From Cystobacter ferrugineus (GTDB taxonomy: Bacteria > Myxococcota > Myxococcia > Myxococcales > Myxococcaceae), in contig NZ_MPIN01000011.1 in NCBI RefSeq assembly GCF_001887355.1, positions 1-64,000 of the forward strand: a stretch of 64,000 nt of DNA, given 5' to 3'. The notes beneath the pieces were generated by a model. That model did not search any database and was not told the DNA's origin. It saw nothing but the letters and a program-made list of their open reading frames with translations. Made by a program: the position numbers and the translations under genes. Shown in pieces: positions 12,400-34,474 of the stretch (the first letter of the stretch is position 1; the number at the start of each line of letters is the position of its first letter).

Positions 12400-12418
12400 G
12401 CCCGCCCGGTTGGCGGGC
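12400..12418 (-). terminator. Hairpin after the 12426-13580 gene
   Basis: GCCCGCC (12400-12406) and GGCGGGC (12412-12418) form a 7-bp perfect stem with a 5-base loop, 8 bp past the stop codon of the unassigned gene on the minus strand. There is no T-run. The position fits a terminator separating that operon from gyrA. Confidence 0.45.
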
Positions 12419-12425
12419 ATTGAAC

Positions 12426-13580
12426 TCAACCCAGGACCTCGCGGGCCTGTTCTACCAGCCGGGTCAGACGCGAGGGCGCCCACCAGCCGCGCGCCACCCG
12501 GGTGCCTATTGCATGCCGTTGGATCAACTCCCGGAGTGCCTCGCACACGCGCTCGCCGTCCGGGCCATGACGGCCTTCATCCGCCTGCCCGGCGAGCTTG
12601 TCCAACCGGGCCCAGCGCGCGGGCGTCCAGCGCTCGTCCTCGGGAATATCCGGCCGCTGCGCGTCCCAGAGTTCATAGGCCACCTCGAACAGCGCCGCCC
12701 GGGCGTCCCCCAGCAGCCCGGGGGCATGCAGGCGCATGTGGGGCGCGTATTCCCGGTCGAAGAGCCACCACATCACCGCCAGACACTCGGCCGCGTCGGG
12801 CGAGAGCGGGGCGAGCCGCAGCCGCGCCATGTGCACCAGCCGACTCCGGGCCTCCTGGTACCAGTACTCGGCGTGAAGCAGACGCTCGGTCCCGGTGCCC
12901 GGCGGGCGGCGCGGCACGAGGGTGGCGCGCTGGCGCAGCTCCGCCACCATGAAGCCCCGCGCGTCCACGCCGGACAGGCGGCGCCAGAGCGAGGCCAGCG
13001 CCGCCTCTCCCCGGGCCCACCCCAGCGCCAGCTCCTCGCGCTGCAGGCTCGAGAAGGGCAGCCGCCCGGAGAGCAGCACCGGGTGCGCGAAGAGCGGCTC
13101 GAGGCGCCCGGCGAACAGCACGGCCTCGCGCAGCGCGGGCAGCGTGTCCGGCAACAGCTCCGCCGCGGTCTGCTCGCGCAGGTGGGCGGGCACCTCGCGG
13201 GGCAGGGTGATGAGCCAATCCTCCAGGGAGCTCATCAGGCTGCCCAGCGACTCCTGGGCGCTGCGTCCGAGCTTGCGCGCCACGTCCCGGGAGAGCTGCT
13301 CGCGCAGCGAGTGCACTTCCCACAAGGTCCGCACGGTCGGGTGATTCGTGGGCCAGTCCTCGGCCTGGGCACGGCGCAGCGCGGGGCCGAGCAGGGCGTC
13401 CAGCGCGTCCTGATGGGCCCGCACCTCGCGCAAGAGGGGCAGTTCCTGCCGCAGACGCTCCTGCCATCGGGACTCGGCCAGCGCGAGCACCAGGCGGTAG
13501 TAGCGCTCCCGGGCGGGCGCGAGCAGAACGGACTGGCCCTCCAGACGGACCTGGAATTCGTCGTCGATGGGCGCGGCCAT
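12426..13580 (-). CDS. Unassigned protein, mainly helical
   Basis: A 384-residue protein rich in Leu, Ala, Arg and Glu, predicted by eye to be almost wholly helical and soluble. No known domain, signal peptide or membrane segment was recognised. Aromatic-rich stretches ([28 protein letters not shown]) may be the conserved core. The ATG at 13580 ([11 protein letters not shown]) was chosen; the upstream part of the frame is low-complexity and overlaps the preceding gene. It starts 22 bp after the TPR gene and is probably in the same operon. Confidence 0.7.
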
Positions 13581-13602
13581 GGGGACGAGTATAGCGCCGG
13601 AC

Positions 13603-14424
13603 TCAAGCCGTCTGGGCGGTGACGTCCTTGGGCCGCAGCGGGGCGGCGAGCCGCTCGGCCTCGACGCCCAGGGGGCCTTCGGGATCCAACGCCTTGGCAC
13701 GCTCGAAGGCGGCGAGCGCGGCCTCGCGATCTCCCTTCAGCTTGAGGGCAACCCCCACGTTGAGGTGCGCGCCAACGTTGTCCCGGTCCATGGAGAGCGC
13801 CTCGCGGAAGGCGGCGAGCGCCTCGTCCAGGTCTCCGGCGAGCAGGGCCTCCTTGCCGGCCTGCACGCGCTTGTCCGCGTCGTTGACGAGTTCCACCTGG
13901 AGCAGGCTGCCCCCGGCCACGGTGAAGATGAGCGCGCGCAGGATGCCGCCCCAGTAGAAGGTCAGGCCCTCGGCGGCCGCCACGGCGGCGATGGGCAGAT
14001 CCGGCAGCAGTTGCTTGCCGCGGAACTTGAAGCGCACCTTCGTGTAGCGGCCCTTGTTCGCCCAGTGGACGACCTCCGCGCGCAGCTTGTTCAAGCCCTC
14101 CTCGATGCGCTTGGGATCGATCTCGAAGGGGAACGCGACGCCGCCCACGGGCTCGCCCGCGGGCAGGGCCTTCTGCTCGGGCACGGACTCCGCCACGGGT
14201 TCGGCGACGAGCCCGGCGAAGGAGGAGGCGGGGGGAAGCACGTCCACCGGAACAGGCGGCGGCACTGGGGCCCGGGCCTTCTTCTTCGCCGCGGGCGGCC
14301 GCGCCTGGGCCACCGGATTCTTCACGGACGAGGGGCGCTTCTTCGCGGCAGCGGCGCTCTTCTTCGGAGCCGCGACGGCCTTCTTCGGGCTCGCCGGGGC
14401 CTTGCGGGGTGAGGTCTTCGCCAT
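13603..14424 (-). CDS. Protein with histone H1-like tail and C-terminal TPR
   Basis: A 273-residue protein in two parts. Residues 1-52 are almost only Lys, Ala, Pro and Ser (PKKAVAAPKKSAAAAKK), like the basic tail of histone H1 or bacterial H1-like proteins, and suggest nucleic-acid binding. After a Pro/Val linker, residues about 95-170 form an unrecognised domain (FEIDPKRIEEGLNKLRAE). Residues about 185-255 are two TPR repeats (AGKEALLAGDLDEALAAFRE, then AHLNVGVALKLKGDREAALA). The role is not known. It is followed after 22 bp by the helical protein gene. Confidence 0.75.
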   Translation of the reverse strand: MAKTSPRKAPASPKKAVAAPKKSAAAAKKRPSSVKNPVAQARPPAAKKKARAPVPPPVPVDVLPPASSFAGLVAEPVAESVPEQKALPAGEPVGGVAFPFEIDPKRIEEGLNKLRAEVVHWANKGRYTKVRFKFRGKQLLPDLPIAAVAAAEGLTFYWGGILRALIFTVAGGSLLQVELVNDADKRVQAGKEALLAGDLDEALAAFREALSMDRDNVGAHLNVGVALKLKGDREAALAAFERAKALDPEGPLGVEAERLAAPLRPKDVTAQTA

Positions 14425-14476
14425 GGTGAGGGGACTCTAACCAGTCGCGAGGCAACGCGCTCGCGGGGGGCGCCCC

Positions 14477-15163
14477 TCACCCGGGCAGCCGCCAATCCAC
14501 GGGCGCGCGCCCGCGCTTCTCCAGCTCCGCGTTGGCGAGGCTGAAGGGCTTGCTGCCGAAGAAGCCCCGCTTGGCCGACAGCGGCGAGGGGTGCGGACCC
14601 TTGATCACCGCATGCCGGCGCTCGTCGATGAGCGCCTCCTTCTTCTGGGCATAGCTGCCCCACAACACGAACACGACCGGCTCCGGCTGCTCGTTCACCG
14701 CCCGGATGACCGCGTCCGTGAAGGCTTCCCAGCCGCGTCCCGCGTGGGAGTTGGGCTCGCTCTCGCGCACCGTCAGCACCGCGTTGAGCAGCAGCACGCC
14801 CCGCTCGGCCCACGGCACCAGCGAGCCCTCCTTCGGCCGGGGCAACCCCAGGTCCGACTGGAGCTCCTTGAAGATGTTCACCAGCGAGGGCGGAGGCTTG
14901 ACGCCCGGCCGCACCGAGAACGCCAGCCCGTGCGCCTGTCCCGCCCCGTGATACGGATCCTGCCCGAGGATGAGGACCTTCACCTGGCCATACGGCGTCA
15001 ACCGGAAGGCCGAGAACAGATCCTCCTCGGGCGGATACACCGTGTGCTGCTGGCGCTCGCGCGCCACGAACTCCTCCAGTTGCCGGAACCCCGGGCTCGC
15101 CAGGACGTCCCGCAGCGCCTCGCGCCACTCCTCCGGGAGCAGGCTCTTCAACGAACTCATCAT
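14477..15163 (-). CDS. ung: Uracil-DNA glycosylase
   Basis: A 228-residue family 1 uracil-DNA glycosylase, which removes uracil from DNA in base-excision repair. The catalytic water-activating motif GQDPYHG is at residues 67-73 (Asp69), and the C-terminal [14 protein letters not shown] loop has the catalytic His191. The length is normal for the family. Two adjacent ATGs (15163 and 15160) are possible starts. No partner repair genes are adjacent. Confidence 0.97.
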
Positions 15164-15286
15164 GCCTCCACGACTCGCGTGTCGATGAGACCCCCTCTAC
15201 CCGACTCACGCGGTCAACTCGCGCCCGAGTGCCTGAAAAGTCGGATGGAGGACCCTCGGCGCCCCAGGCGGGCCCCAGAACACGAC

Positions 15287-15316
15287 GGGCCCGGAGAGGA
15301 AATTCCTCCCGGGCCC
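15287..15316. terminator. Strong hairpin between ung and the 15342-15767 gene
   Basis: GGGCCCGGAGAGGAA is followed directly by TTCCTCCCGGGCCC, which pairs with it along 14 bp with a single bulged base. It lies 26 bp past the stop codon of the small minus-strand gene. The lack of a T-run leaves it as a probable, not certain, terminator. Confidence 0.55.
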
Positions 15317-15341
15317 GCGGGTGCGAAGGCTGGCGTCTGGA

Positions 15342-15767
15342 TTACTGCAGCAGCATCTGCGCCATGCGCTGGGCGGCGAGCTCCGTCGCGTTGTTCAGGC
15401 CGAGCTGGCTCAGGCCCTTCTGGGCGAAGTTGCCCATGAGCTGGCCCAGCACGTCCGTCACGCCCTTCTTGCCGGTGGCCAGGTTGAGCGCGGAGCTCAG
15501 GATGCTGTTGCCGCCCGCGCCGTCCAGGAACCCCGCGGCCCCGCCGAACTTGCCCAGGAGGTTGCCGAACACGCCGGCTCCGCCGCCACCACCGGGGATG
15601 AGGCTGGACGCCGCGCTGAACAGCGACTGGGTCAGGCTCTTACCGCTCGCGAGGTTGCCCGCGAAGCCCAGGGCCGCGCCCGCCAGCGGGTTGACCATGG
15701 AGACGATAGGGGCCGCGAAGCTGGCAACCTTTCCAAGAGCCTTACCGATTCCGCCGAGGAAACCCAT
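15342..15767 (-). CDS. Small Gly/Ala-rich hydrophobic protein
   Basis: A 141-residue protein not recognised as any family. It begins MGFLGGIGKALGKVASFAAP and has several moderately hydrophobic Gly/Ala-rich helices, a GGGGGAG hinge near residue 60, and a Gln/Leu-rich end (AAQRMAQMLLQ). There is no classical signal peptide and few charged residues. The look is of an amphipathic, possibly pore- or assembly-forming small protein, but this is a guess. An AAGGAT sequence lies before the ATG. The gene is bounded by hairpins on both sides, suggesting a single-gene transcript. Confidence 0.65.
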   Translation of the reverse strand: MGFLGGIGKALGKVASFAAPIVSMVNPLAGAALGFAGNLASGKSLTQSLFSAASSLIPGGGGGAGVFGNLLGKFGGAAGFLDGAGGNSILSSALNLATGKKGVTDVLGQLMGNFAQKGLSQLGLNNATELAAQRMAQMLLQ

Positions 15768-15859
15768 GATGTGATCCTTTTCGAGGGGCCGCCGCAGCGG
15801 CCGTGAGTGCTACCGACAAAAGGATTCTCGCACGTCGTGATTATTTGTTTCCTGATCCC

Positions 15860-15893
15860 CCGAGAATTTTTCCATTCTTGGAAATGCTCGGGA
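15860..15893. terminator. Nested inverted repeat between two minus-strand genes
   Basis: Outer arms CCCGAG (15860-15865) and CTCGGG (15888-15893) enclose inner arms TTTCCA (15870-15875) and TGGAAA (15880-15885) around a TTCT loop. It lies 33 bp past the stop codon of the 15927-16391 gene and 92 bp upstream of the next gene start. It could end the first transcript or be a regulatory site for the second. No T-run follows on the minus strand. Confidence 0.4.
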
Positions 15894-15926
15894 AATCAAG
15901 AGGATGGGATCGCTCCCGCGAGAAGC

Positions 15927-16391
15927 TCAGGGCTTGAATTTGGGCTTGGGGCGCTGGAGTTCCAGTTCCTGAGACAGTTCCTTGGAAGCGGCATCGCTCT
16001 TCGGGGGAACCTTGTAGGGGATGGACTCCTCGGAGCCGAGCGTCCGCTGGTACTGCGCCGGCGTGGGGCCCTTGGTGAAGCCATCCTGCGCCTGGCCCGG
16101 GACGATGGGGATCTCCCCCTTGGCCAGCTTCTGCAGATGGTTCTCGACCTCGGTGACGGTCGGAATGCTGGGGTCCTCCTTCTTGAGCGCCTCGTCCGGG
16201 ACGATCATGATCGCGGGCGGCTTCTCCGGATGGGAGGCGTAGTCGAGGATCTTCTCCACGTACTGCTCCACCGGGATCTGGAGCAGACGGGCCTGCTCCT
16301 TCACATCCGCGTCCTTCAACAGCTCTTCGCGAACGTCGTCGATGGGGCGCCGCAGCTTCTTGCCTTCCGCCTTGCTCTTCTCATCGGACAT
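15927..16391 (-). CDS. Unassigned small charged protein
   Basis: A 154-residue soluble protein beginning MSDEKSKAEGKKLRRPIDD. It is rich in Lys, Glu and Pro, ends in a proline/lysine tail (RPKPKFKP), and has no recognised domain, signal peptide or membrane segment. A Val-Glu-Gln-Tyr helix (LLQIPVEQYVEKILDYA) may be its structured core. Codon use is like neighbouring core genes. ATG 16391 was chosen because the 20 upstream codons of the open frame resemble leader DNA. It is divergent from the WGR gene. Confidence 0.7.
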   Translation of the reverse strand: MSDEKSKAEGKKLRRPIDDVREELLKDADVKEQARLLQIPVEQYVEKILDYASHPEKPPAIMIVPDEALKKEDPSIPTVTEVENHLQKLAKGEIPIVPGQAQDGFTKGPTPAQYQRTLGSEESIPYKVPPKSDAASKELSQELELQRPKPKFKP

Positions 16392-16573
16392 AACGAGGGA
16401 TCTCCAGGGGGGAATGAGGGCCAGAGCAGGGTCGAGCGTGAGTCGCCGCATCCAGGCCCGGTCGCAAAGCCATATTGCTAGCCCAGTCGCCCCCTGGATT
16501 GCAAAAAGGCCTCCCTTGTCCGTCCGCGGGGTGGGGGTGGTGCGCTACGGTCCGGGTTCCCGCGGAGACTGCA

Positions 16574-19500
16574 ATGCGTCGCTTCGAATTGGTCGAGGGC
16601 TCGTCGAGGAAGTTCTGGGAGATTGAAGCGCAGGACACCGGCTTCACCGTGCGCTGGGGGCGCATCGGCACGAGCGGGCAGACCCAGCAGAAGTCCTTCC
16701 CCACCGCCGAGAAGGCCCGGGCCGAGCAGGACAAGCTCATCGCCGAGAAGCAGAAGAAGGGCTATGCGGAGGTGGGCAGCGCCGCCAGCGCCGAGGCACC
16801 GCCCCCCGCGAGTCCGCCTCCGCCCGCGCCCGCGAAGAAGGCCAGGAGCGCCACACCCCCTCCCGAGGCACCCGTCTCCACCGCCCCCGAGGCCCCCATC
16901 CCGCCCCCACCCGCCGCCGACCCGGACGCGCCCATCGCCTGGAGCGAGTCCGTCCTGCGCCGCGTGCATCCACGCCGGGGTGGCGTCGCCGTCCCGGTGC
17001 GTCCGCTCCCGCCCGTGAAGAAGTCCTGGGCCCTGGTGCGCGAGGACTTCCTCGAGCGCGTCCCCCCCGGGCTCATCCCCGAGGACACGCACAAGAACAA
17101 CCTCACCACCGAGACTCGCGCCGTCGCCGAGCGCATCAGCCGCCCCGAGCCCTCCCTCGGCACGCCCGAGGAGGACGCCGTCCTGGTCATCTTCCTCCAG
17201 TACCAGGAGTCCTGGAACAAGGTCCCCCGCCACGAGCCCATCATCGATCTGCTCTTCGCCCTGGGCGGGCCCGTCCACGCCACGCGCGCCATGCTCCTGT
17301 CCCTGGATCTGTATCTGGCGGGTAACAAGGCGCTCCATGCCCGGCGGGGCGTGAACACCAATGCCCATCACCAGCATTACAACCTGCTGTCGCGCGGCCA
17401 CCTGCGCGGCCTGCCCCGCCTGCGGGCCCTGCTCGCCACCCAGACGGATGACGCGGGCTACCAGGCCGCTCGCGACGCCGCCGCCCTCCTGCTCGACTCC
17501 GAGGCGCGCCGCGCCGCCTCCGCCTTCCTCTTCCCCACGGAGACCGCCTGGGTGCGCGCCCAGGCCGAGGAGTTCGTCGCGGCCCAGGAGCCAGGAGTCC
17601 CCTTCCTCCTGAGCAGCGTCTCGGAGCCCGACACGCTCTCCCTGCTCATCCCCAAGGTGGACACCTGGAGTCTGATGCGCGAGCCGAATGGCCACCTGGC
17701 CTCGCTGCTCGATGGCGTGGGGGTGCACGGCCTCGCGCTCCTGCGCGAACTCCAGCCCAAGTCCATTGGAGCCGAAGCGGTGCGGGCCTGGGCCGAACTC
17801 ACCGCGAGCATCAACACGGATGAGGCGATGCGGCTGCTGCTCGAAGCCGAGAAGGAGGCCCTCCCGTTCCTCATCGAGGCGACCGTGCGCTGGCCCCACC
17901 GCGCGCTGCGGCTCATCACCCCCCGGGCCGCCCTCCGGGGCAAGGAAGGCGATCAGGCGCGCTCCATCCTCGGCCACCTGCTGCGCCGCGAGCCCGACGC
18001 CGTGCGAGCCTCCCTCCCCCTCCTGTCCGACGAGGCGCGCGAGGTGGTGGCCCGCCTCCAATCCCAGCTCGGCCCCGACGTCCCCGACGCGACCCCCGAG
18101 CAGCTCCCCCCCGTCCTCGCGAGTCCCCCCTGGCGCGCGAGCCGCAAGCCCGAGGCGCTCCCCGTGCTCGACGGCGTGGTGCCCCCGGCGCTTCCCGATG
18201 CGCTCGTGTGGCGCGAGGGCGAACAGGTGGAATGGTCGCGGCGCAAGGGCTGGGAGTACAAGCCCTACGGCAGCGGGCCGGAAGAGCAGGCGCTGCTGAG
18301 CGGAAAGGTGGACCTCGCCCGCTTCAACGGGCGGATGGACATCCGGTTCTTCTCCTACGCGCCGGAAGCGCTCGCCCTCGCCCACCTCGGCAAGCTGCTC
18401 CAGCCCAACCGCTACGAGGAGGACTGGCTCCCCCCCATCATCGCGCGGCTGGGACTCGCCGCGCTCCCGGTCATCACCGACTACGTCACCACGCACGGCT
18501 CCGAGACCTACGCCCTGCTCGCGCCCTATGCCGTGACCCGGCTCGCCCCCCAGGTGGCCGATGCCTTCCACCGCACCAAGAAGGCCCGCCCCGCCGCCCG
18601 CGCGTGGCTCCTGCGCCACCCCGAGCACGCCTCCGCCGGACTGCTCGTCCCCGCGCTCGGCAAGCCCGGCAAGGCCAAGGACGCCGCCTGCGCCGCCCTG
18701 CGCATGCTCGCCTCCAACGGCCAGGAAGCCACCGTGCTCGACGTGGCCGGCCGCGTGTCCCCCCAGGTGCACGAGGCCGTGCGGCGCGTCCTCGCCTTCG
18801 ATCCGATCAACCTCTTTCCCGCGAAGCTCCCCACCCTGCCCGAGAACCTCGGCCTCGATGGGCTGCCCCGGCCCCTGCTCCGGGACCGCTCCGCGAAGTT
18901 GCCCCTCCCGGCCGTCCGGGAACTCACGACCCTGCTCGCCTTCTCCTCCCTGGATGCGCCCTACGCGGGCCTGGAGCAGGTGAAGACCGCGTGCGACCCC
19001 GCCAGCCTCGCCCGCTTCGCCTGGGGCCTCTTCGAGGCCTGGATGACGGTGGGCGCTCCGAGCAAGGAGTCCTGGGCCTTCCAGGCGCTCGGCCTGCTCG
19101 GCGATGACGACACCGCGCGCAAGCTCGCCCCGCTCATCCGCGTGTGGCCCGGCGAGGGCGCTCACGCCCGCGCCGTCATGGGCCTCGACGTGCTGGCCAC
19201 CCTCGGCACCGACGTGACGCTCATCTACCTCAACGGCATCGCCGAGAAGGTGAAGTTCAAGGGCCTGCAGCAGAAGGCCCAGGAGAAGATCGAGCAGATC
19301 GCCGAGGCGCGCGGCCTCACCCGCCAGGAGCTGGCCGACCGGCTCGTGCCCGACCTCGGACTGGACGAGAGCGGCTCGCTCTCCCTGGACTTCGGCGGGC
19401 GCACCTTCACCGTGGGCTTCGACGAGCAGCTCAAGCCCTTCGTCAAGGACGCCTCCGGCGCCCGGCTCAAGGACCTGCCCAAGCCCGGCCAGAAGGATGA

Positions 19501-20269
19501 CGCGCAGAAGGCGAACGCCGCGGTGGAGCAGTGGAAGGCGCTCAAGAAGGACGCCAAGACGGCCGCGAGCATCCAGATCCTCCGCCTGGAGCTGGCCATG
19601 TGCGCCCGGCGCCGCTGGAGTCCGGAGGTCTTCCGCCGCTTCTTCGTCGAGCACCCGCTGCTCATCCACGTGGTGCGCCGGCTGGTGTGGGGCACGTACT
19701 CGCCCGAGGGCGCGCTGAAGGACACCTTCCGCGTCGCCGAGGACCGCACCTTCGCCGACCCGAACGAGGACACCTGGACGCTGCCCGAGGACGCCCTCGT
19801 GGGCCTGCCCCATGCGCTGGAGCTGGACGGGAAGACGGCGGGCGAGTGGGGGCAGATCCTCGCCGACTACCAACTGCTACAACCCTTCGCGCAGCTCGGC
19901 CGCTCCACCTTCGCGATGGAACCGGCGGAGCGCGAGGCCAGGACGCTCGAACGGGTGAAGGGACTCAAGGTGCCCACGGGCAAGGTACTGGGCCTGGAGA
20001 CGCGCGGCTGGCGGCGCGGCACTCCCCAGGACGCCGGCGTGACGTGCTGGATGGAGAAGCCGCTGGGCGATGACCGCACGGCCGAGCTCGACCTCGAGCC
20101 GGGCCTCTACACGGGAGCTCTCTCCGGGTCTCCCGAGCAGGAGCTCGGCGGGGTGAAGGTGCGCCAGGCCAACACCTGGAGCGACGAGGGTCTCCAGACC
20201 TGGGGCACGCTGGATGCCATCCTCTTTTCCGAGCTGGTGAGAGACCTCGAGGGCCTGCGTCCGGCGTGA
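16574..20269 (+). CDS. WGR and DUF4132 domain protein (YehI-like)
   Basis: A 1231-residue protein. Residues 1-75 are a WGR domain (FWEIEAQDTGFTVRWGRIGTSG), a nucleic-acid-binding module known from PARP enzymes, followed by a Pro/Ala-rich linker to about residue 125. A long helical repeat-like middle region and a DUF4132 domain at about 975-1155 (containing LQPFAQLGRSTFAM and GLETRGWRRGTPQDAGVTCW) complete it. This is the architecture of E. coli YehI, which is of similar length and unknown function. It heads a same-strand cluster with AAA+, DUF5682, vWA and SWIM genes, matching E. coli yehI-yehL-yehM-yehP-yehQ. The ATG at 16574 fits the WGR start. It is probably cytoplasmic. Confidence 0.85.
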   Translation: MRRFELVEGSSRKFWEIEAQDTGFTVRWGRIGTSGQTQQKSFPTAEKARAEQDKLIAEKQKKGYAEVGSAASAEAPPPASPPPPAPAKKARSATPPPEAPVSTAPEAPIPPPPAADPDAPIAWSESVLRRVHPRRGGVAVPVRPLPPVKKSWALVREDFLERVPPGLIPEDTHKNNLTTETRAVAERISRPEPSLGTPEEDAVLVIFLQYQESWNKVPRHEPIIDLLFALGGPVHATRAMLLSLDLYLAGNKALHARRGVNTNAHHQHYNLLSRGHLRGLPRLRALLATQTDDAGYQAARDAAALLLDSEARRAASAFLFPTETAWVRAQAEEFVAAQEPGVPFLLSSVSEPDTLSLLIPKVDTWSLMREPNGHLASLLDGVGVHGLALLRELQPKSIGAEAVRAWAELTASINTDEAMRLLLEAEKEALPFLIEATVRWPHRALRLITPRAALRGKEGDQARSILGHLLRREPDAVRASLPLLSDEAREVVARLQSQLGPDVPDATPEQLPPVLASPPWRASRKPEALPVLDGVVPPALPDALVWREGEQVEWSRRKGWEYKPYGSGPEEQALLSGKVDLARFNGRMDIRFFSYAPEALALAHLGKLLQPNRYEEDWLPPIIARLGLAALPVITDYVTTHGSETYALLAPYAVTRLAPQVADAFHRTKKARPAARAWLLRHPEHASAGLLVPALGKPGKAKDAACAALRMLASNGQEATVLDVAGRVSPQVHEAVRRVLAFDPINLFPAKLPTLPENLGLDGLPRPLLRDRSAKLPLPAVRELTTLLAFSSLDAPYAGLEQVKTACDPASLARFAWGLFEAWMTVGAPSKESWAFQALGLLGDDDTARKLAPLIRVWPGEGAHARAVMGLDVLATLGTDVTLIYLNGIAEKVKFKGLQQKAQEKIEQIAEARGLTRQELADRLVPDLGLDESGSLSLDFGGRTFTVGFDEQLKPFVKDASGARLKDLPKPGQKDDAQKANAAVEQWKALKKDAKTAASIQILRLELAMCARRRWSPEVFRRFFVEHPLLIHVVRRLVWGTYSPEGALKDTFRVAEDRTFADPNEDTWTLPEDALVGLPHALELDGKTAGEWGQILADYQLLQPFAQLGRSTFAMEPAEREARTLERVKGLKVPTGKVLGLETRGWRRGTPQDAGVTCWMEKPLGDDRTAELDLEPGLYTGALSGSPEQELGGVKVRQANTWSDEGLQTWGTLDAILFSELVRDLEGLRPA

Positions 20270-20341
20270 GGCGCCCGGGGTGCGCGAGGAGAAACATCAC
20301 CTGGACGCGGACAGAGGCACATGCGAAGCGTCACCAGGAAC

Positions 20342-21580
20342 ATGGAACACAAAAGAACCTCGTTCTTCCTCCGCCTGCTCACGTTGATGTCCCTGGCGGG
20401 GTGCACCCCCGAGAACCCTCCCCCGGCGCAACAGCCCACCCTCCACGGCGAGTCGATCCTTTCCGCCGATGAGACCTGGCGCGCCGCCGACAACCCCCAC
20501 ATCGTGACGGGTCCCTTGACGGTGGGAGGCACCAAGACCCCAACGCTCACCCTGGAAGCGGGAGTGGTGGTGCGCTTCGAACCGAATGCGTCGTTGAGCA
20601 TCGGCGTCTCGCCGAACCATCCCGGGGAGCTGCGCGTGGAAGGAACGGAGAACGCCCCCGTCCTCCTGACCGCCCGGTCGGACAATCCCCAACCCGGTCA
20701 TTGGAAAGGGGTGATGGTGGGCGATTACTCGTCCGATGCCAGCCGGCTGGCGCATGTCACGATCGAGTACGCGACCGGCGTCATCGAACGAGAACACTGC
20801 GTGCAAGGGAGTCTGACCGTCGGAGCCACTCCGCGCACTCCCCACGCCTTCGCCGTGGCCGACCACGTCACCGTCCAGAAGAGCAGGGAATGTGGCGTGG
20901 TGATGTATGGCGACCTCGGTCCAGGCTCGACCCGGTTGATTGCCCGCGACAATGGCGGGGTGGCCATCTCCGTGGAAGCCGACTCGGTGGGCTCCATTCC
21001 CGAAAACAGCCTCATGAGCGGCAACGCGCTCGATGCCGTCCAGGTCCACGCGGGAGCGATCTGGAAGACCCAGACGTGGCCACGGCTCGGCGTGCCCTAT
21101 CTGGTCGAGCAACTGTCCATCTACGACGTCGATGCGGCCCTCACGCTCCCGCCAGGCACGGAGCTCCACATGCGGCCCGAGGCCATCATCGGTATCTATG
21201 GAGTGGGGCGGCTCATCGCCCAGGGAGAAGCACAGGCTCCCATCCGGTTCGTCCCGGATACCACCACGCCCAGCAAGGAACACTGGAAGGGATTGATGTT
21301 GGTCGCCTCGTCCCAGAGCAGGCTCGACCATGTCTTGATTTCCCACGCGGGAAGCACGACCACGGGAAGCCTGTTCGTGGCTCCCGCGCACGATGGAACA
21401 CCAGGACCCTTCGTGACCCACAGCACGTTTCGAGACTCGGTGGGATGTGGAATCACGACGAGCACCTCTTCCACGGGCGTGCCCCTGGATTACACCCTCG
21501 CGGAGTACGGCAACACCTTCCTCGACAATGAGCTGGGGGCACAGTGCTATCGCACCGAGGAACCCGGCGACGGTGACTGA
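20342..21580 (+). CDS. Unassigned lipoprotein inside the yeh-like cluster
   Basis: A lipoprotein of 412 residues. MEHKRTSFFLRLLTLMSLAGC is a signal peptide with the lipobox SLAGC. The mature part contains repeated beta-rich segments with G-V-V-V-R-F and similar (LTLEAGVVVRFEPNASLSIG, and PPGTELHMRPEAIIGIYG), suggesting a right-handed beta-helix such as those of surface or pectin-lyase-like proteins. No catalytic motif was seen. The start at 20342 is preceded by AGGAA; ATG 20321 is also possible. E. coli yeh clusters do not place such a gene between yehI and yehL, so its membership of the system is inferred from position only (72 bp after the WGR gene, 45 bp before the ATPase). Confidence 0.75.
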   Translation: MEHKRTSFFLRLLTLMSLAGCTPENPPPAQQPTLHGESILSADETWRAADNPHIVTGPLTVGGTKTPTLTLEAGVVVRFEPNASLSIGVSPNHPGELRVEGTENAPVLLTARSDNPQPGHWKGVMVGDYSSDASRLAHVTIEYATGVIEREHCVQGSLTVGATPRTPHAFAVADHVTVQKSRECGVVMYGDLGPGSTRLIARDNGGVAISVEADSVGSIPENSLMSGNALDAVQVHAGAIWKTQTWPRLGVPYLVEQLSIYDVDAALTLPPGTELHMRPEAIIGIYGVGRLIAQGEAQAPIRFVPDTTTPSKEHWKGLMLVASSQSRLDHVLISHAGSTTTGSLFVAPAHDGTPGPFVTHSTFRDSVGCGITTSTSSTGVPLDYTLAEYGNTFLDNELGAQCYRTEEPGDGD

Positions 21581-21625
21581 GCGTCCGCGCCACCAGGCGC
21601 GCCGGGTGCCATACTCCTGGACATC

Positions 21626-22744
21626 ATGGCAACGACCCGGAAGAAGAACGCGCCGGTGACGGCGGCGGAGATCCAACGGCCTCCCGCGGAAGTGCTCCAC
21701 GCGGAAGAGCTCGCGCGGCTGCGTGACGCGGACACCGCACCCCGGCCCCCGGGCTGGAGCCTGTCGCTGCACGCCGTGCGCCGCTTCATCCTCGGAGACG
21801 AGGCGCTGGGCGTGCAGCGCAAGTTCGTGGGCAACCCGAGCCTCGTGGACCGGGCCATGGTGACGCTCGCCACCAACCGCGGGTTGATGCTCGTGGGCGA
21901 GCCCGGCACCGCCAAGAGCCTCCTGTCCGAGCTGCTCGCCGCCGCCATCTCCGGCACCTCCACCCTCACCATCCAGGGCGGCGCGTCCGTCACCGAGGAT
22001 CAGATCAAATACTCGTGGAACTACGCGCTGCTCGTCTCCGAGGGCCCCACGCCCCGCGCGCTCGTGCCCGCCCCGCTCTACACCGGCATGAAGGAGGGCC
22101 GGGTGGTGCGCTTCGAGGAGATCTCCCGCTGCCCCATCGAGGTGCAGGACTCGCTGCTGTCCATGCTGTCGGACCGGGTGCTCGCGGTGCCGGAGCTCAA
22201 GGACGCGGATGCCATGGTGTTCGCCCGCGAGGGCTTCAACATCATCGCCACCGCCAACACGCGCGACCGGGGCGTCAACGAGATGAGCGCGGCGCTCAAG
22301 CGGCGCTTCAACTTCGAGACGGTGTTCCCCATCGGCGACTTCGCCACCGAGCTGGCGCTCGTGCGCGACGAGACGGCGCGGCTGCTCCAGCGCTCGGGCG
22401 TGCCGGTGACACCGCCGGAGGACTTGCTGGAGGTGCTCGTCACCACCTTCCGCGAGCTGCGCTCGGGCGAGACGCGCGAGGGCCAGGCCCTGGAGCGGCT
22501 CAGCTCGGTGCTCTCCACCGCGGAGGCCGTGTCCGTGGCCCACGCGGTGGGCGTGCGCGGCTACTACCTGCGCGGCGACGGCGGCTCGGCGGCGGACCTC
22601 GTCGAGTGTCTGGCCGGCACCGCGGCCAAGGACAACGCCGAGGACCTCAAGCGGCTGCGCGTCTACCTGGAGCAGCGGGTGTCGCGCCGCACCGGCTCCC
22701 ACTGGCGCGCCCTGTACGACGCCCGCCACCTGCTGCCAGGGTGA
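21626..22744 (+). CDS. MoxR-like AAA+ ATPase (YehL-like)
   Basis: A 372-residue AAA+ ATPase of the MoxR/YehL type. Walker A is GEPGTAKS at residues 91-98, a Walker B-like stretch is VVRFEEISR near residue 160, and the sensor region is IATANTRDRGVNEMSAALKR with the arginine-finger segment KRRFNFE. MoxR proteins act as chaperone-like ATPases that remodel or load a vWA partner. Such a partner is encoded two genes downstream. The stop codon lies 4 bp before the GTG of the DUF5682 gene. Confidence 0.88.
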   Translation: MATTRKKNAPVTAAEIQRPPAEVLHAEELARLRDADTAPRPPGWSLSLHAVRRFILGDEALGVQRKFVGNPSLVDRAMVTLATNRGLMLVGEPGTAKSLLSELLAAAISGTSTLTIQGGASVTEDQIKYSWNYALLVSEGPTPRALVPAPLYTGMKEGRVVRFEEISRCPIEVQDSLLSMLSDRVLAVPELKDADAMVFAREGFNIIATANTRDRGVNEMSAALKRRFNFETVFPIGDFATELALVRDETARLLQRSGVPVTPPEDLLEVLVTTFRELRSGETREGQALERLSSVLSTAEAVSVAHAVGVRGYYLRGDGGSAADLVECLAGTAAKDNAEDLKRLRVYLEQRVSRRTGSHWRALYDARHLLPG

Positions 22745-22748
22745 ACGC

Positions 22749-25076
22749 GTGAGCGGGCGGAACGACTCCCGGCTCCACGTCGTCGGCGTGCGCCACCACA
22801 GCCCGGCCTGCGCCCGGCTCGTGGCCCACACCCTCGAGACCGTGCGGCCCCGCCATGTGCTCATCGAGGGGCCCGTGGACATGAATCCCCGGCTGGAGGA
22901 GCTGCTCCTGCCGCACGAGCCGCCCCTCGCCGTCTTCAGCGCCTACCGCGACGAGGAGCGCACCCATGCGTCGTGGACACCCTTCTGCGCGTACTCGCCG
23001 GAGTGGGTGGCGCTGACGAAGGGGCACGCGGCCGGCGCCCAGGTGCGCTTCATGGACCTGCCCGCCTGGGACAAGGCCTTCGAGGGCGTGCGCAACCGTT
23101 ACTCGGACGGGGAGCGCCGCACCGCCCGGGCCATCGACGCGCTCTGCCAGAAGCTGGGCCTGGAGGGCATGGACGCCCTGTGGGATCACCTCTTCGAGCA
23201 ACCGCTCGGAATGGACGTGCTCGCCGAACGGCTGCGCGTCTACTTCGACTCCCTGCGCGGCGAGGAGGAGGCCTCCGAACGCGACACCCAGCGCGAGTCC
23301 TTCATGCTCGCCCACGTGGAGGCGGCGCTCGCGCGAGACGAGGGCCCCGTGGTGGTGGTGTGCGGCGGCTTCCATGCCCCCGTGCTCGCGCGAGCCCAGG
23401 CGCGGCCCGGAGCCAGCTTTCCCCCCGCGCCGAGCCACCCCTCCGCCAGGAGCTACCTCGTCCCCTACAGCTTCCGCCGCCTGGATTCCTTCGCCGGGTA
23501 CGAGTCCGGAATGCCCTCGCCCGCCTTCTACCAGGCGCTCTGGGAGTCCGGCGCCGAGGCCGCTCCCGGGATTCTGCTGCGTGAGGCCGTCGGACGGCTG
23601 CGTGCGCGCGGCCAGCACGTGTCATCGGCGGATCTCATCGCCGCCTCCGTCATGGCCGAGGGCCTCGCCCGGCTGCGCGGCCACGCGGTGCTCTCGCGCA
23701 CGGACCTGCTGGATGGACTCGCCTCCGCCCTGGTGAAGGAGTCGTTGGACGTGGCCCTGCCATGGACGAGCCGGGGCGTGCCCTCGCCCGACACGCACCC
23801 GCTGCTCGCCGAGGTGCTGCGCGCCTTCAGCGGCGAGCGCACCGGACGGCTCAGCCCCCTCACGCCCCGCCCTCCCCTGCTCACCGACGTCGAGCACACC
23901 CTGCACGCCCATGGCCTCACCCCCAGCCCGAGCCCACGCACGGTGCGCCTGGAGCTGCGTGAGCCCGGCGACGTGGAGCGCGGCCGGGTGCTCCATCGCC
24001 TGCGGGTGCTCGGCATCCCCGGCTTCACCCGGAACGCGGGCCCCACCTTCCCCACCGAGCCCGTGCTCCAGGAGTCCTGGACGGTGGCCCCCTCGGAGGA
24101 CTTCCTCTCCTGGGTCATCGAGGCCTCGGGCTGGGGCGCCACCCTGGAGCAGGCCGCCACCAGCCGTCTGGAGGAAGCCCTCCTCCAGGCGGGGCCGAAC
24201 CTGGAGCGGCTCACGCTGCTGCTGGCCGAGAGCTTCTTCATCGGCGCGAAGCACCTGGCCCGGCGCGTCCTCTCCGCGGTGGCCACTCAGGCGGGCAACG
24301 AGCCAGACCTCGCGCGGCTGGGCGCGGCCCTGGAGCGGCTGCTCGCCATCTGGCGGCATGACGTGCTGCTCGGTGCCCAGGGCTCCGCCGAGGTGGGACA
24401 GTTGCTCGCGGCCGCCGTCGAGCGGGGGCTGTGGTTGCTCGAGCAGCTCGACGGCCCCACGCTCCCCGCCGACGAGGGACACCTCCGGGCCATGGCCGCG
24501 CTGCGCGACACGCTGCGCTTCGCCGCCCAGCCCCTCGCGCTCGACATGGTCCGGGCCAGTGCCGTGTTCGAGCGTCGGCTCGCGTCCCTCCATGCGCCAC
24601 CCGCGGTGCGTGGGGCCTCGCTCGGGGCGCTCTGGTCCCTGTCGCGCTTCCCCGACGAGGCGAGCGCCGAGGCCACGGCCCTGCGCGCCACTCGCGCCGC
24701 CGCGCGCCCCTCCACCCTCGGGGACTTCCTCGCCGGGCTGTTCCGGCTCGCCCGCGAGCAGGTGGTGCACACGCCCGCCCTCACCTCGGTGCTGGACGAG
24801 CTCATCCGCCAGCTCACGGAGGAGGACTTCCTCGTCGCGCTCCCGGCGCTGCGGCTGGCCTTCGGGTTCTTCCCGCCCCGGGAGAAGGAGGGCATCGCCC
24901 GGCTCCTGCTGCCGCTGCACGGACAGGACGCCTCGGGTGCGCGGGCCCTGGTGCGCCTCGACGTGGACCCCGCCGTCATCCTCGCCGGCGCGGCGCTGGA
25001 TGACGAGGTGGAGCAGGTGCTCGAACGCTTCGGCCTGCATGGGCCCGATAGGAAGGAGGAGCGCGATGCCCCTTGA
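22749..25076 (+). CDS. DUF5682 family protein (YehM-like)
   Basis: A 775-residue protein of the DUF5682/YehM family, recognised by the N-terminal pattern VVGVRHHSPACARLV, then HVLIEGPVDMNPRLEELL and the stretch VVCGGFHAPVLA. The N-terminal half may be a TraB- or EreA-like alpha/beta fold (HHSP and EGP-type motifs), while the second half is helical. Its biochemical role is not known. The GTG at 22749 fits the family start; it lies 4 bp after the ATPase stop. The end overlaps the vWA gene by 11 bp. Conserved pairing with MoxR-like, vWA and SWIM genes in many bacteria suggests it is the effector or adaptor of the complex, an inference. Confidence 0.82.
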   Translation: MSGRNDSRLHVVGVRHHSPACARLVAHTLETVRPRHVLIEGPVDMNPRLEELLLPHEPPLAVFSAYRDEERTHASWTPFCAYSPEWVALTKGHAAGAQVRFMDLPAWDKAFEGVRNRYSDGERRTARAIDALCQKLGLEGMDALWDHLFEQPLGMDVLAERLRVYFDSLRGEEEASERDTQRESFMLAHVEAALARDEGPVVVVCGGFHAPVLARAQARPGASFPPAPSHPSARSYLVPYSFRRLDSFAGYESGMPSPAFYQALWESGAEAAPGILLREAVGRLRARGQHVSSADLIAASVMAEGLARLRGHAVLSRTDLLDGLASALVKESLDVALPWTSRGVPSPDTHPLLAEVLRAFSGERTGRLSPLTPRPPLLTDVEHTLHAHGLTPSPSPRTVRLELREPGDVERGRVLHRLRVLGIPGFTRNAGPTFPTEPVLQESWTVAPSEDFLSWVIEASGWGATLEQAATSRLEEALLQAGPNLERLTLLLAESFFIGAKHLARRVLSAVATQAGNEPDLARLGAALERLLAIWRHDVLLGAQGSAEVGQLLAAAVERGLWLLEQLDGPTLPADEGHLRAMAALRDTLRFAAQPLALDMVRASAVFERRLASLHAPPAVRGASLGALWSLSRFPDEASAEATALRATRAAARPSTLGDFLAGLFRLAREQVVHTPALTSVLDELIRQLTEEDFLVALPALRLAFGFFPPREKEGIARLLLPLHGQDASGARALVRLDVDPAVILAGAALDDEVEQVLERFGLHGPDRKEERDAP

Positions 25077-26184
25077 ACCCCTGGCGCGCTGGCGCCTCGT
25101 GTTGGGTGAAGCCTCGGACGGGGCGCTCGGCAACTGCCTGGACGAGCGGGGACGGGCGATGGACTCGGCGCTCTCGTGGCTCTACGGCCGGGAGGGAGAG
25201 CTCTCCGAGCGCGGCGTGCGCCAGGGAGGCTCGGGCGAGTCCGTGCTCAGCGTTCCGGAGTGGATCAACGACGTCCACACGCTCTTTCCCAAGGAGACCA
25301 TCGAGCGGCTCGAGCAGGATGCCGTCGAGCGCTATCAAATCGACGAGGTGGTGACGCGCGCCGACGTGCTCGAGCGCGTGGAGCCCAACGAGACGCTGCT
25401 GCGCGCGGTGCTGCGCACCAAGCACCTGATGAATCCCGAGGTGCTCGCGGTGGCCCGCCGCATCGTGCAGCGGGTGGTGAACGAGCTGATGGAGAAGCTG
25501 GCCCGGGAGGTGCGCCGCACGTTCTCGGGGGTGCTCGACCGGCGCAGGCGCTCGCCGCTGAAGGTGGCGCGCAACTTCGACTTCCGGCGCACCCTGCGCG
25601 AGAACCTGCGCCGCTACTCCCCCGCCGAGCGGCGGATCGCCATCGAGCGCGCCGCGTTCTACTCGCGCACCCGCCGCCACGTGGACCGCTGGCAGGTCAT
25701 CCTCCTGGTGGACCAGTCCGGCAGCATGGCGTCCTCGGTCATCCACTCGGCCGTCACCGCGGCGTGTCTGTGGGGACTGCCCGGCATCCAGACGCACCTC
25801 GTCGCCTTCGACACCGCCGTGGTGGACCTCACCCGGGACGTGACGGACCCGGTGGAGCTGTTGATGAAGGTACAGCTCGGCGGCGGCACGGACATCCAGC
25901 TCGCGGTGGCCTATGCCGCGGGGCTCATCGAGACCCCCCGGCGCACCCTCGTCGTCCTCATCACCGACTTCTTCGAGGGCGGCTCCCCGGGGATGCTCGT
26001 GCGCCGGGTGAAGGAGCTGTGTGATCAGGGCACGAAGGTGCTGGGGCTCGCGGCGCTCGAACCGGACGCCACGCCGAACTACGACCGCGACTGCGCCCGG
26101 CGGCTGGTGGACGTGGGCGCGCACGTGGCGGCGATGACTCCCGGAGAGCTGGCCGCGTGGATCGCCGAGAAGGTGCGCGCATGA
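25066..26184 (+). CDS. vWA domain protein (YehP-like)
   Basis: A 372-residue cytoplasmic protein with a C-terminal vWA domain at about residues 210-350. Its metal-binding site is intact: DQSGSM from Asp216, a Thr in GGGTDIQLA, and an Asp in LITDFFEGG. The N-terminal 200 residues are helical and Arg-rich (EVRRTFSGVLDRRRRSPLK), resembling MoxR-associated vWA partners. ATG 25066 was chosen because AGGAGG lies at 25054-25059, just upstream; the longer open frame seen above it is a shadow of the DUF5682 gene. It overlaps both neighbours (11 bp and 4 bp), which suggests tightly coupled production. Confidence 0.88.
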   Translation: MPLEPLARWRLVLGEASDGALGNCLDERGRAMDSALSWLYGREGELSERGVRQGGSGESVLSVPEWINDVHTLFPKETIERLEQDAVERYQIDEVVTRADVLERVEPNETLLRAVLRTKHLMNPEVLAVARRIVQRVVNELMEKLAREVRRTFSGVLDRRRRSPLKVARNFDFRRTLRENLRRYSPAERRIAIERAAFYSRTRRHVDRWQVILLVDQSGSMASSVIHSAVTAACLWGLPGIQTHLVAFDTAVVDLTRDVTDPVELLMKVQLGGGTDIQLAVAYAAGLIETPRRTLVVLITDFFEGGSPGMLVRRVKELCDQGTKVLGLAALEPDATPNYDRDCARRLVDVGAHVAAMTPGELAAWIAEKVRA

Positions 26185-28199
26185 GCCGGGCGGATCTCCT
26201 CGCGCTCACGCCCCAGGCCATCGCGAGCCTGTCCAATCCGGGGCTCGTCAAGCGCGCCCAGAAGGAGCTGGAGCAGGGCAAGGGGCCGCGCCTGGAGGAG
26301 CTGGCGGACGGCACGGTGGTGGGCACCTTCGAGGACGGTGTCATCGCCCGGCTCGTTCCGGGCAAGGCCTTCAAGGACAGTCCCTGCTCCTGCAACGCCA
26401 CCGCCGTGTGCCGCCACCGCGTGGCCACGGCCCTCGCCTATCCGTCGTTCATCGCGTCGAGCGCCGCACCGCCCGTCGCCGAGGTGAAGGCGGAGGCGCC
26501 CTGGTCCCCGGCGGCCGTGGACGACGCGGAGCTGGCGCGAGTGCTGCCCCGCCGGGCCCTGGAGCGGGCCGAGGGCCTCCGGGAGCGCGGCTATCTCGCG
26601 CAGGTGCGGCGCGGGACCTTCGAGGGAGAGGACCTGCCCTCGGTGGCGCTCGCCACGTGCACGGTGCGCTTCCTGGTGCCGAGGGACTTGAGCTACGCGC
26701 GCTGTGACTGCTCGCTCGGCACGGGCTGCGAGCACCTGCCTCTGGCCATCTGGGCCTTCCGTGCCGCCGACGAGAAGGATCCCACGCGCCGCGAGGTCTC
26801 CGTCGAGGTGGCCCGGGGCTCCGTCACCTCCACCGTGGGGGGAGCGGCGCTGGACACGGCGGGGGACCTCGTGCGCTATCTCGTGTTGGAGGGAGTCCAG
26901 CACGCCAGCCAGGGGCTCGCGGGGCGCTTCGCCGTGGCCCGCGCGGGCCTGGAGGAGGCGCGCATGACGTGGCCGCTCCTGGCGCTCGAGGAGCTGGAAG
27001 AGCTGCTCGGTGCCTACGTGAGCCGGGGTGCCCGCTATGACGCCCCGCGCTTCACCTCCGTGCTGACGGAGCTCTTCGCGCGCATGAGGGCCTCCCGGAC
27101 GCCGGGCCCGGTGCCGCCCCGGGCGGTGCTGGGCATGGACGAGGCGCCGGAGACGAAGCTCGACTACGTGCGGCTGGTGTCGCTGGGCCTCCGGCTCTTC
27201 GCCGAGGGCCGGGAGCGCCGCGCGGAGGTGGTGCTCGCGGACCCGGCCACCGCGGGCCTGCTCGTGGTGCGCCGCGCCTTCACCTACGCGGAGGACCAGA
27301 CGCCCGAGGACGGGGCCTGGCTCGGACGCCGGCAGGGCGCCCCCGGTGCCACCCTGGAGGCGCTCGCGCGCGGGCAGGTGCTGACGTCGGGCGCCACGCG
27401 GCGCACCAACCGCCTCATCCTCTTCTCCACCCAGGGATTGCAGCGCACCTCGGTGACGCCACAGTCCGGGGACTGGAGCCCGCTGCCCGAGCCCCTGCTC
27501 GTGAAGGACGTGCGCGCGCTGGAGTCCGCCTGGCGCTCCCGCCCTCCGCGCTTCCTCCGGCCCCGGCTGCTCGCGGAGAACGTGCATGCCTTCGCCATCT
27601 CCCGCGTGGGAGAGGTGACATACGCCCCGGGTGCCCAGGAGGTGCACGCGGAGTTGGAGGACCCACGGGGCCACGGCTTCCGGGTCGAGCTGTCCCACCG
27701 CTCGGTGGCTCCCGGGGCGCTGGACGCGCTCGCCGGGGCGCTCACGGGCCAGCACGGACCGCCGCGCTACGTCTCGGGCGAGGTGCGCCGGACGGCCCGG
27801 GGGCTCGTCGTCGAGCCCATGGCCCTGTCCTGTGAGAAGGGCGTGGTGGCGCTCGACGTGCAGCCCGCCGTCACGACGGGCAAGCTGCGCACGGCGGCGG
27901 ACGCGCCCGCGCTTCCCCCGCTGGCGGCGGCCCTGACCGAGGTGGAGGGCTGCCTCGCGGAAGGGGTGCACCAGGGTCTGCGCCACGTGCCCCCCGCGTG
28001 GACCACCCGGCTCGACACCGTGGCGTCACGGGCCCGAGCGCTGGGCCTGAAGCGCCTGGCGGATGACCTGGGCGCGCTCGGCGCGACGCTCGCGAGGGCC
28101 CGGGCCTCGGGGGCCGCCGGGGACGAAGCCGCGCTCGCCGAGACCTGGGCCAGCGCCGCCCTGCGCACCCAGGTGGGACACGAGCAGCTCGGCGGATAG
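26181..28199 (+). CDS. Double SWIM zinc-finger protein (YehQ-like)
   Basis: A 672-residue protein with two SWIM-type zinc sites. The first is C69-S-C71 ... C77-R-H79 (PCSCNATAVCRHRVA), the second C175-D-C177 ... C183-E-H185 (RCDCSLGTGCEHLP). SWIM domains bind zinc and take part in DNA or protein contacts. The remainder is helical and unassigned. The ATG overlaps the vWA stop as ATGA, and no gene follows for 84 bp, so this closes the operon. The gene corresponds to E. coli yehQ in family and position. Confidence 0.85.
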   Translation: MSRADLLALTPQAIASLSNPGLVKRAQKELEQGKGPRLEELADGTVVGTFEDGVIARLVPGKAFKDSPCSCNATAVCRHRVATALAYPSFIASSAAPPVAEVKAEAPWSPAAVDDAELARVLPRRALERAEGLRERGYLAQVRRGTFEGEDLPSVALATCTVRFLVPRDLSYARCDCSLGTGCEHLPLAIWAFRAADEKDPTRREVSVEVARGSVTSTVGGAALDTAGDLVRYLVLEGVQHASQGLAGRFAVARAGLEEARMTWPLLALEELEELLGAYVSRGARYDAPRFTSVLTELFARMRASRTPGPVPPRAVLGMDEAPETKLDYVRLVSLGLRLFAEGRERRAEVVLADPATAGLLVVRRAFTYAEDQTPEDGAWLGRRQGAPGATLEALARGQVLTSGATRRTNRLILFSTQGLQRTSVTPQSGDWSPLPEPLLVKDVRALESAWRSRPPRFLRPRLLAENVHAFAISRVGEVTYAPGAQEVHAELEDPRGHGFRVELSHRSVAPGALDALAGALTGQHGPPRYVSGEVRRTARGLVVEPMALSCEKGVVALDVQPAVTTGKLRTAADAPALPPLAAALTEVEGCLAEGVHQGLRHVPPAWTTRLDTVASRARALGLKRLADDLGALGATLARARASGAAGDEAALAETWASAALRTQVGHEQLGG

Positions 28200-32701: not shown

Positions 32702-34474
<1,773 letters not shown>

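Follow-up and report, generated by a model that had tools for sequence, protein, structure and literature searches.

What do bacteria use a MoxR ATPase and a von Willebrand factor A (vWA) protein for when a protein of the DUF5682 family is encoded between the two? The question is raised by six plus-strand genes, delimited by open reading frames, Pfam matches and a motif scan, that span positions 16574-28199 of a stretch of DNA from the soil bacterium Cystobacter ferrugineus (GCF_001887355.1, contig NZ_MPIN01000011.1, positions 1-64,000). This whole stretch of 64,000 nucleotides is referred to as the window, and coordinates are those of the window. An earlier note on this DNA had recognised in the block the order of E. 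coli yehI, yehL, yehM, yehP and yehQ and had proposed a single five-part machine, with a nucleic acid-facing WGR protein and a hint of a role in biological conflict. Here, the block is interpreted as type I of a modular and widespread machine, in which a MoxR-vWA chaperone would act on a putative TIKI-like hydrolase, assisted by SWIM and helical-repeat proteins as adaptors, in a role linked to stress. We put the chances of this interpretation at about even.

Constant and exchangeable parts of the gene set

Profile searches for DUF5682, DUF4132 and DUF5691 covered 195 Myxococcota genomes and 14 named control genomes, and 54 regions of up to 20 kb each were read from the surveyed genomes. Further loci were marked with profiles built in this study: seven from genome contigs (three of them, L034, L036 and L037, duplicate L068, L065 and L064), 12 regions from a plasmid collection, one contig from a phage collection, and E. 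coli K-12 (NC_000913). The records of L095, L100, L102 and L105 are filed as plasmids and are chromosome-sized. Of the 195 Myxococcota genomes, 61 gave a match to DUF5682, 23 to DUF4132 and 17 to DUF5691 (above the cut-off in 14). At every locus with a match to the DUF5682 profile, MoxR precedes and vWA follows, with the exception of three loci at contig ends (L039, L040 and L055); the spacing varies, with DUF4132 standing between DUF5682 and vWA on the rhizobial plasmids L096 and L098, and small genes between MoxR and DUF5682 in L101 and L103. Thus, MoxR-DUF5682-vWA is the constant core, and the SWIM protein and its helical-repeat partner come as exchangeable types.

Type I combines a long SWIM protein with DUF4132 and is found in the window, in E. 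coli, in actinobacteria and on rhizobial plasmids; the Proteus locus L100 was assigned to it on a weak SWIM score (72 bits). Type II combines a short SWIM protein with DUF5691, and type III has a SWIM-HEAT fusion with a C-terminal part like DUF5691. In the Fusobacterium locus L105, a short SWIM gene is present and DUF5691 was not detected. Type IV comprises loci in which the SWIM or partner gene was not recognised, namely five from myxobacteria (L066, L067, L070, L071 and L072) and a sixth, L107, on a short contig that begins just before MoxR. In the five myxobacterial loci, the core is preceded by a gene of approx. 500-635 amino acids (aa) without recognised SWIM or DUF5691 similarity, and one such gene, when scanned against Pfam, gave no match. 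The L107 contig (MoxR-DUF5682-vWA at 283-4828) is labelled 'Bacteriophage sp.' and comes from human faeces; the record is unverified and possibly represents bacterial DNA.

The idea of one fixed five-gene set, as put forward in the earlier note, was rejected on the appearance of type II and type III loci: the core is constant, the SWIM and helical-repeat parts are exchangeable, and DUF4132 is mostly found apart from DUF5682. Likewise, a WGR protein as a general DNA-facing subunit is not supported, since YehI lacks WGR, type II has DUF5691 instead and type III a HEAT fusion. Nonetheless, the same note was right that these families are conserved together in distant bacteria, as they occur together across phyla much more often than chance would give.

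A midpoint-rooted FastTree phylogeny of MoxR plus vWA from 52 loci recovered type I (20 loci, support 0.997), type II (17 loci, 0.967) and type III (8 loci, 1.0) as exact clades. The tree was built without the three duplicates, L040 and L055 (cut), L076 (no DUF5682 match), L099 (E. coli, already represented by another copy) and L106 (fragmented vWA); in L039, no MoxR gene is in view. Because L107 groups with Fusobacterium, the six type IV loci do not form a clade. The accessory type thus tracks the core phylogeny. Membership of the type I clade cuts across taxonomy, uniting E. coli, an Iodobacter plasmid, rhizobial plasmids, two actinobacteria (L038 and L095) and myxobacteria, and type I has therefore probably been transferred between phyla. 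The host of the window also has a type II system (L041, contig C2:618001-638000) with short SWIM, DUF5691, MoxR, DUF5682 and vWA genes. The control genomes agree with the type predictions: DUF5682 is present in E. coli and Deinobacterium, DUF4132 in E. coli only, and DUF5691 in Deinobacterium only.

The linkage of the partner genes to the core exceeds what chance would give, as the earlier note had required of its reading. Of the 12 type I DUF5682 places, 10 have the start of a DUF4132 match within 12 kb and an 11th has it at 27 kb, and for the 12th the nearest is on another contig; none of the 56 other DUF5682 places has one within 30 kb (neighbourhoods were read for 27 of these, the other 29 being from the same genera as type III loci that were read). 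These counts omit a DUF5682 match below the cut-off in G147, a second fragment in G006 and a second DUF4132 fragment in G092. In the window, the starts of the DUF4132 and DUF5682 matches are separated by 3.4 kb. All 14 DUF5691 places that exceed the cut-off have DUF5682 no more than 4 kb away. Against a tight set, however, just 11 of the 31 DUF4132 places have a DUF5682 within 20 kb on the same contig. Given this low number, the FMN-dependent dehydrogenase and histidine kinase genes that stand between DUF4132 and MoxR in L069, and the divergent orientation of DUF4132 and MoxR in L060 and L040, DUF4132 is a separate module that is also found alone. The host genome encodes a second DUF4132 protein (L081, contig C40, 12143-13990), with no DUF5682 match on that contig, and short proteins similar to it occur in G061, G062, G064 and G091. 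Tandem DUF4132 genes precede the core in a congener (L088, 1660-11318), on the Iodobacter plasmid L097 (2288-8842) and in E. coli (L003, 7300-13909; the yehH pseudogene and yehI).

SWIM motifs were counted in each family. Among matches of at least 100 bits (which excludes L100, and with three loci counted twice), at least one motif occurs in 24 of 25 long SWIM proteins and at least two in 21 of 25; one motif is found in 26 of 30 short SWIM matches and in all 26 SWIM-HEAT fusions. As background, among 1037 other frames no shorter than 400 aa, two contain one motif, and none contains two. In profile-profile comparisons, the fusion matches DUF5691 at 83.6%, the long SWIM family at 97.1% and the short SWIM family at 100%, the last value not being independent because the short SWIM profile recruited fusion sequences while it was built; long and short SWIM profiles match each other at 44%.

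The partners of types I and II are both predicted to be helical repeats. For type I, an AlphaFold2 model of the window's WGR-DUF4132 protein (residues 560-1231, five sequences) is of low confidence, with a predicted local distance difference test (pLDDT) score of 67.7 and a predicted template modelling (pTM) score of 0.42. It is helical up to about model residue 364, before the DUF4132 domain, and mixed helix and strand thereafter; the helical part gives HEAT-type structure matches (Z up to 10.4), which may reflect only a common arrangement. HEAT matches also occur in the type III fusion, and the prediction for DUF5691 rests only on similarity to that fusion. A common origin of DUF4132 and DUF5691 was ruled against, with no profile match above 20%.

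DUF5682 as a putative client of MoxR and vWA

The best clue to the function of the set is a TIKI/TraB-like domain in DUF5682, which was absent from the earlier note. In an AlphaFold2 model computed from seven sequences, the protein consists of an N-terminal alpha/beta domain (about residues 1-240) and a C-terminal helical repeat (about 375-760). Among the 50 structure matches listed by VIA-align, three are confined to residues 2-221: two chains of a Tetrahymena complex IV subunit (8b6h_DQ, Z 10.3, 193 residues, 4.6 A; 7w5z_E, Z 10.2, 195 residues, 4.7 A) and HopBA1 (5t09, Z 8.8, 141 residues, 3.4 A). HopBA1 is listed within the TIKI superfamily (excerpt of PMC6254334), and we infer that the two chains are the TraB-family subunit of Tetrahymena complex IV named in a figure legend (excerpt of PMC10060162); a TraB profile searched against PDB sequences did not recover this subunit. 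Foldseek ranked a Marseillevirus TraB family protein second in its viral library, with a probability of 1.00, and its PDB rows, among the 50 matches listed, are mostly chains of helical-repeat and other large complexes.

Profile comparison points the same way. With hhalign, the DUF5682 N-terminal alignment (45 sequences) matches TraB (25 sequences) at 79.7% (E 1.5e-5, 74 columns) and ChaN (25 sequences) at 68.0% (E 4.8e-5, 172 columns). The known relatives TraB and ChaN match each other at 85.8%, and a second, overlapping pair of alignments (24 vs. 12 sequences) gave 76.0%. As controls, four unrelated families of the same loci (MoxR, vWA, SWIM and DUF4132) did not exceed 0.23%, and one profile with shuffled columns and one in reverse did not exceed 0.46%. 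A Pfam scan of 24 DUF5682 members, with ChaN/Tiki in three (best E 0.023) and TraB in one (0.012), shows little by itself because single members also match unrelated families.

Active TIKI enzymes have a common site of two His and two Glu, and some TIKI proteins are metal-dependent (excerpts of PMC6254334). In DUF5682, residues D103, R182, M186, G206 and H209 are identical in 55 of 55 sequences, and H16 and E40 are conserved in 54 of 55, the remaining one having a gap. The predicted fold is like that of the TIKI/TraB/ChaN/EreA superfamily, with two His and one Glu in matching order; what sets the protein apart is the long helical repeat joined to this domain and the position of its gene between MoxR and vWA, and its catalysis is putative. 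Together, structure matches, controlled profile comparison and invariant His/Glu residues support the predicted resemblance of the DUF5682 N-terminal domain to this superfamily.

The Walker A, Walker B and arginine finger motifs of MoxR and the metal ion-dependent adhesion site (MIDAS) of vWA are intact and nearly invariant. In MoxR (Walker A at residues 91-98, Glu-Glu of Walker B at 164-165), the motif residues tested are invariant in 55 sequences, save for one S98T substitution and the variable position 166. Of the MIDAS residues D216, S218, S220, T275 and D301, the Asp and Ser residues are conserved in 53 of 53 sequences and the Thr in 52 of 53. These residue counts omit the three duplicate loci and short or weak rows.

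By analogy with NorQ-NorD, and given that DUF5682 is encoded between the pair, MoxR-vWA is proposed to act on DUF5682. In that precedent, NorD is the vWA protein and inserts a finger into the pore of NorQ, which through its activity remodels a linker of NorD required for metal insertion (excerpt of PMC13036017). Accordingly modelled on it, a MoxR hexamer coupled through the vWA protein would remodel DUF5682, so that its metal is loaded or its active site opened. The SWIM and helical-repeat proteins would serve as adaptors that deliver a protein or nucleic acid-bound substrate, and the putative hydrolase activity would be used only once this delivery has occurred. We infer this chain, which may run from client to gating to substrate, by analogy. 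Its weakest step is the role itself, which could be quality control or maturation linked to stress rather than phage defence. In E. coli, yehL-yehQ match in 5301 of 5426 genomes (5162 covering at least 80%), and 5320 of 5322 places are chromosomal; this is a core-genome pattern, which fits a housekeeping or stress role.

Several points weigh against such a machine. The status of DUF5682 as a client and the adaptor roles rest on gene order, and activity, complex formation and phenotype are all predicted. The DUF5682 model has a pLDDT of 69.1 and a pTM of 0.49, and the Marseillevirus match has an E value of 0.044, a template modelling score of 0.41 and a root-mean-square deviation of 12.0. Foldseek found no match at E ≤ 0.001 in PDB or the viral library, and neither phmmer with the single protein nor hmmsearch with the profile found a DUF5682 relative among PDB sequences. 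The profile matches, at 68-80% probability, are of moderate strength, and that to TraB spans just 74 columns. In the Pfam scan, a CBM46 match that looks like chance (0.0044) is at least as strong as those to ChaN and TraB, and single members match 13 unrelated families. Of the four catalytic positions of TIKI enzymes, only three can be paired with obvious candidates (H16, E40 and H209), and the second Glu was not identified. Moreover, neither a SWIM gene nor a partner gene was recognised in the type IV loci. Plasmid copies and the patchy presence among Myxococcota are also compatible with a conflict system, and in an E. coli ST131 sublineage a transposon disrupts the DUF4132/yeh region (excerpt of PMC9334617), so at least that part is dispensable there.

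The gene block in Cystobacter ferrugineus

The families of the block and their order match E. coli K-12 (yehI, (yehK), yehL, yehM, yehP and yehQ in NC_000913), as claimed in the earlier note, and the two loci belong to the same type I clade. By BLASTP against K-12, MoxR is 66% identical to YehL over 358 aa, vWA 62% to YehP over 367 aa, DUF5682 38% to YehM over 721 aa, the SWIM protein 29% to YehQ over 626 aa (E 1.7e-64) and the DUF4132 protein 37% to YehI over a C-terminal stretch of 603 aa. In contrast to the window protein, which has an N-terminal WGR domain, E. coli YehI has no Pfam WGR match at E ≤ 0.01, and WGR occurs there in the separate YehF.

Table 1. Genes of the block and the evidence for their assignment
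Feature	Coordinates	Strand	Evidence
WGR-DUF4132 protein, YehI type, 1231 aa	16574-20269	+	Pfam WGR 8e-19 (residues 4-68), DUF4132 5.6e-53 (962-1146)
Lipoprotein-like gene (by eye), 419 aa	20321-21580	+	no Pfam match
MoxR AAA+ ATPase, YehL type, 372 aa	21626-22744	+	Pfam AAA_5 1.7e-34
DUF5682 protein, YehM type, 775 aa, GTG start	22749-25076	+	Pfam DUF5682 3.5e-112
CoxE-like vWA protein, YehP type, 372 aa	25066-26184	+	Pfam VWA_CoxE 1.2e-58
Double-SWIM zinc-finger protein, YehQ type, 672 aa	26181-28199	+	two CxCx(n)CxH motifs, YehQ homology

The 4-bp gaps or overlaps that had been described between the last four genes hold for the gap between MoxR and DUF5682 and for the ATGA overlap of vWA and SWIM (given a SWIM start at the ATG at 26181), whereas DUF5682 and vWA overlap by 11 bp, given a vWA start at the ATG at 25066. 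The proposed families are assigned by Pfam for five domains, whereas the SWIM product has no Pfam match at E ≤ 0.01 and is recognised by its motifs and YehQ homology only. The 419-aa gene, another feature absent from the earlier note, occupies the position of yehK. Because the 1.35-kb block at 20272-21624 that holds it is missing in the congener locus L062, where the flanks align at 89% and 95% identity, the gene is probably an insertion outside the machine; a phmmer search over the scanned loci returned only the gene itself. Rfam gave no match between 14000 and 31000; no sigma-70-like promoter was found, and terminators are at chance level.

Among 44 genes picked in the flanks of the block, 20 were scanned by Pfam and 10 of those by PADLOC. 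The flanks contain gyrA, uracil-DNA glycosylase, DnaJ and other ordinary genes, plus a Ser/Thr kinase and a RapA-like helicase that match models of defence proteins. On the minus strand, 36007-42381 encodes a protein with WD40 and aspartyl-protease domains, another of the periplasmic-binding/TPR kind, and a Ser/Thr kinase that contains an MshEN domain.

Alternative roles and what the gene set may mean

It is unlikely that the set is an anti-phage conflict system, in which MoxR-vWA would be a threshold switch, DUF5682 an effector or third component, and the SWIM and WGR proteins sensors of foreign nucleic acid. Four ternary conflict systems with MoxR and vWA are known, with VMAP, iSTAND, FtsH or beta-propeller components (excerpt of PMC7159879), and vWA-MoxR-VMAP genes are CRISPR-linked in some genomes (excerpt of PMC10910872). 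Like these ternary systems, the window has MoxR, vWA and one constant third protein. However, that third protein is DUF5682, and no VMAP, iSTAND, FtsH or propeller domain is found by Pfam at E ≤ 0.01; bpMoxR scores 23.2 bits in the window, below the cut-off of 27. Moreover, the vWA proteins of the ternary systems carry variable C-terminal effectors, whereas the window vWA domain ends at residue 366 of 372, which leaves no space for them. The patchy distribution among Myxococcota would suit a conflict system, as would copies on the conjugative plasmids L096 and L098, a copy adjoining a restriction-modification system on the Iodobacter plasmid L097, and one adjoining a PDDEXK nuclease gene in Hymenobacter (L103). 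The plasmid copies show that the gene set also moves; in addition, the E. coli IncF plasmid L099 carries the yeh region (3371-17394) between IS26 copies, beside resistance genes.

The neighbourhood in the window is equivocal. At 4.5 kb downstream, the Ser/Thr kinase gene (32702-34474) matches models of PD-T4-6 at 1.4e-90, and the RapA-like helicase (49434-52598) matches BrxH models at 3e-68 and also DrmD and DpdE models. Since Pfam names these proteins Pkinase and SNF2/RapA_C, their matches to defence models probably reflect generic similarity. At E ≤ 0.001, PADLOC models match none of the five proteins; the best match, WGR_XIII, has an E value of 0.0092 on the WGR protein, and the other four proteins have none. 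With this result, the core-genome pattern seen in E. coli and a single scan of viral contigs in which no relative was found, the defence reading, hinted at in the earlier note, is not supported. The evidence from the flanks is mixed.

A helper in repair of DNA damage or nucleic acids seems distinctly unlikely. WGR and SWIM would bind nucleic acid, MoxR-vWA would remodel protein-DNA complexes, and DUF5682 would cleave or remove bound protein. In Deinococcus, the operon of the DUF4132 gene DRA0166 is strongly upregulated upon DdrO depletion, and the WGR protein MolR is described as LexA-regulated in E. coli (excerpts of PMC8533742); the window WGR domain weakly matches PARP3 (2eoc, E 0.016). Against this reading, YehI lacks WGR, and types II and III lack the DUF4132 partner.

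Other chaperones consist, like the window pair, of a MoxR ATPase and a vWA partner: NorQ-NorD, RavA-ViaA and CoxD-CoxE. These are tied to respiratory or CO-dehydrogenase enzymes, whereas the window has a TIKI-like gene between the pair. YehL is one of seven MoxR subfamilies, and the window MoxR is its counterpart; in the excerpted source, the naming covers the ATPase only (PMC3893208). Ordinary maturation of one metallo-enzyme (DUF5682 or an unlinked one) by metal insertion, as with NorQD/CoxDE, and with SWIM and partner as loosely linked helpers, is the least probable role despite the CoxE-like vWA protein, the CoxD and NorQ precedents (excerpts of PMC3893208 and PMC13036017) and the metal dependence of some TIKI proteins (excerpt of PMC6254334), since the SWIM and partner types co-segregate with the core phylogeny and can be argued to be integral.

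The statement in the earlier note that the set has no established role agrees with the literature searched, in which no paper on its function was found; for yehL-yehQ, yehI, DUF4132, DUF5691 and MoxR-vWA-SWIM, no title or opening of an abstract concerned the function of the operon. DUF5682 is named in no paper of that literature, although recognition in earlier work on the Tiki superfamily is possible, and the terms 'SWIM', 'WGR', 'TraB' and 'YehP' are absent from the main text of PMC7159879. Within the titles and partial texts of the same literature, the types, the exchange of accessory genes and the TIKI-like domain were likewise not found.

Thus, yehL-yehQ are nearly universal in E. coli, yet a paper on their function was not found in the literature searched. 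With the superfamily assignment and candidate catalytic residues, the four-gene set of E. coli K-12 becomes directly testable, and typing separates the constant parts (MoxR, DUF5682 and vWA) from the exchanged ones. If DUF5682 is acted on by this pair, a putative hydrolase client would be added to those known for MoxR-vWA machines. It is tempting, if doubtful, to go further and propose an additional class of MoxR-vWA machine, one absent from the literature searched, in which the AAA+ pair would switch on a protease or esterase of the TIKI/TraB fold, and SWIM-plus-helical-repeat cassettes would swap substrate recognition. Such a class would represent a new form of ATP-gated hydrolysis, parallel to Clp or FtsH and built from another ATPase family and another hydrolase fold, in nearly every E. 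coli.

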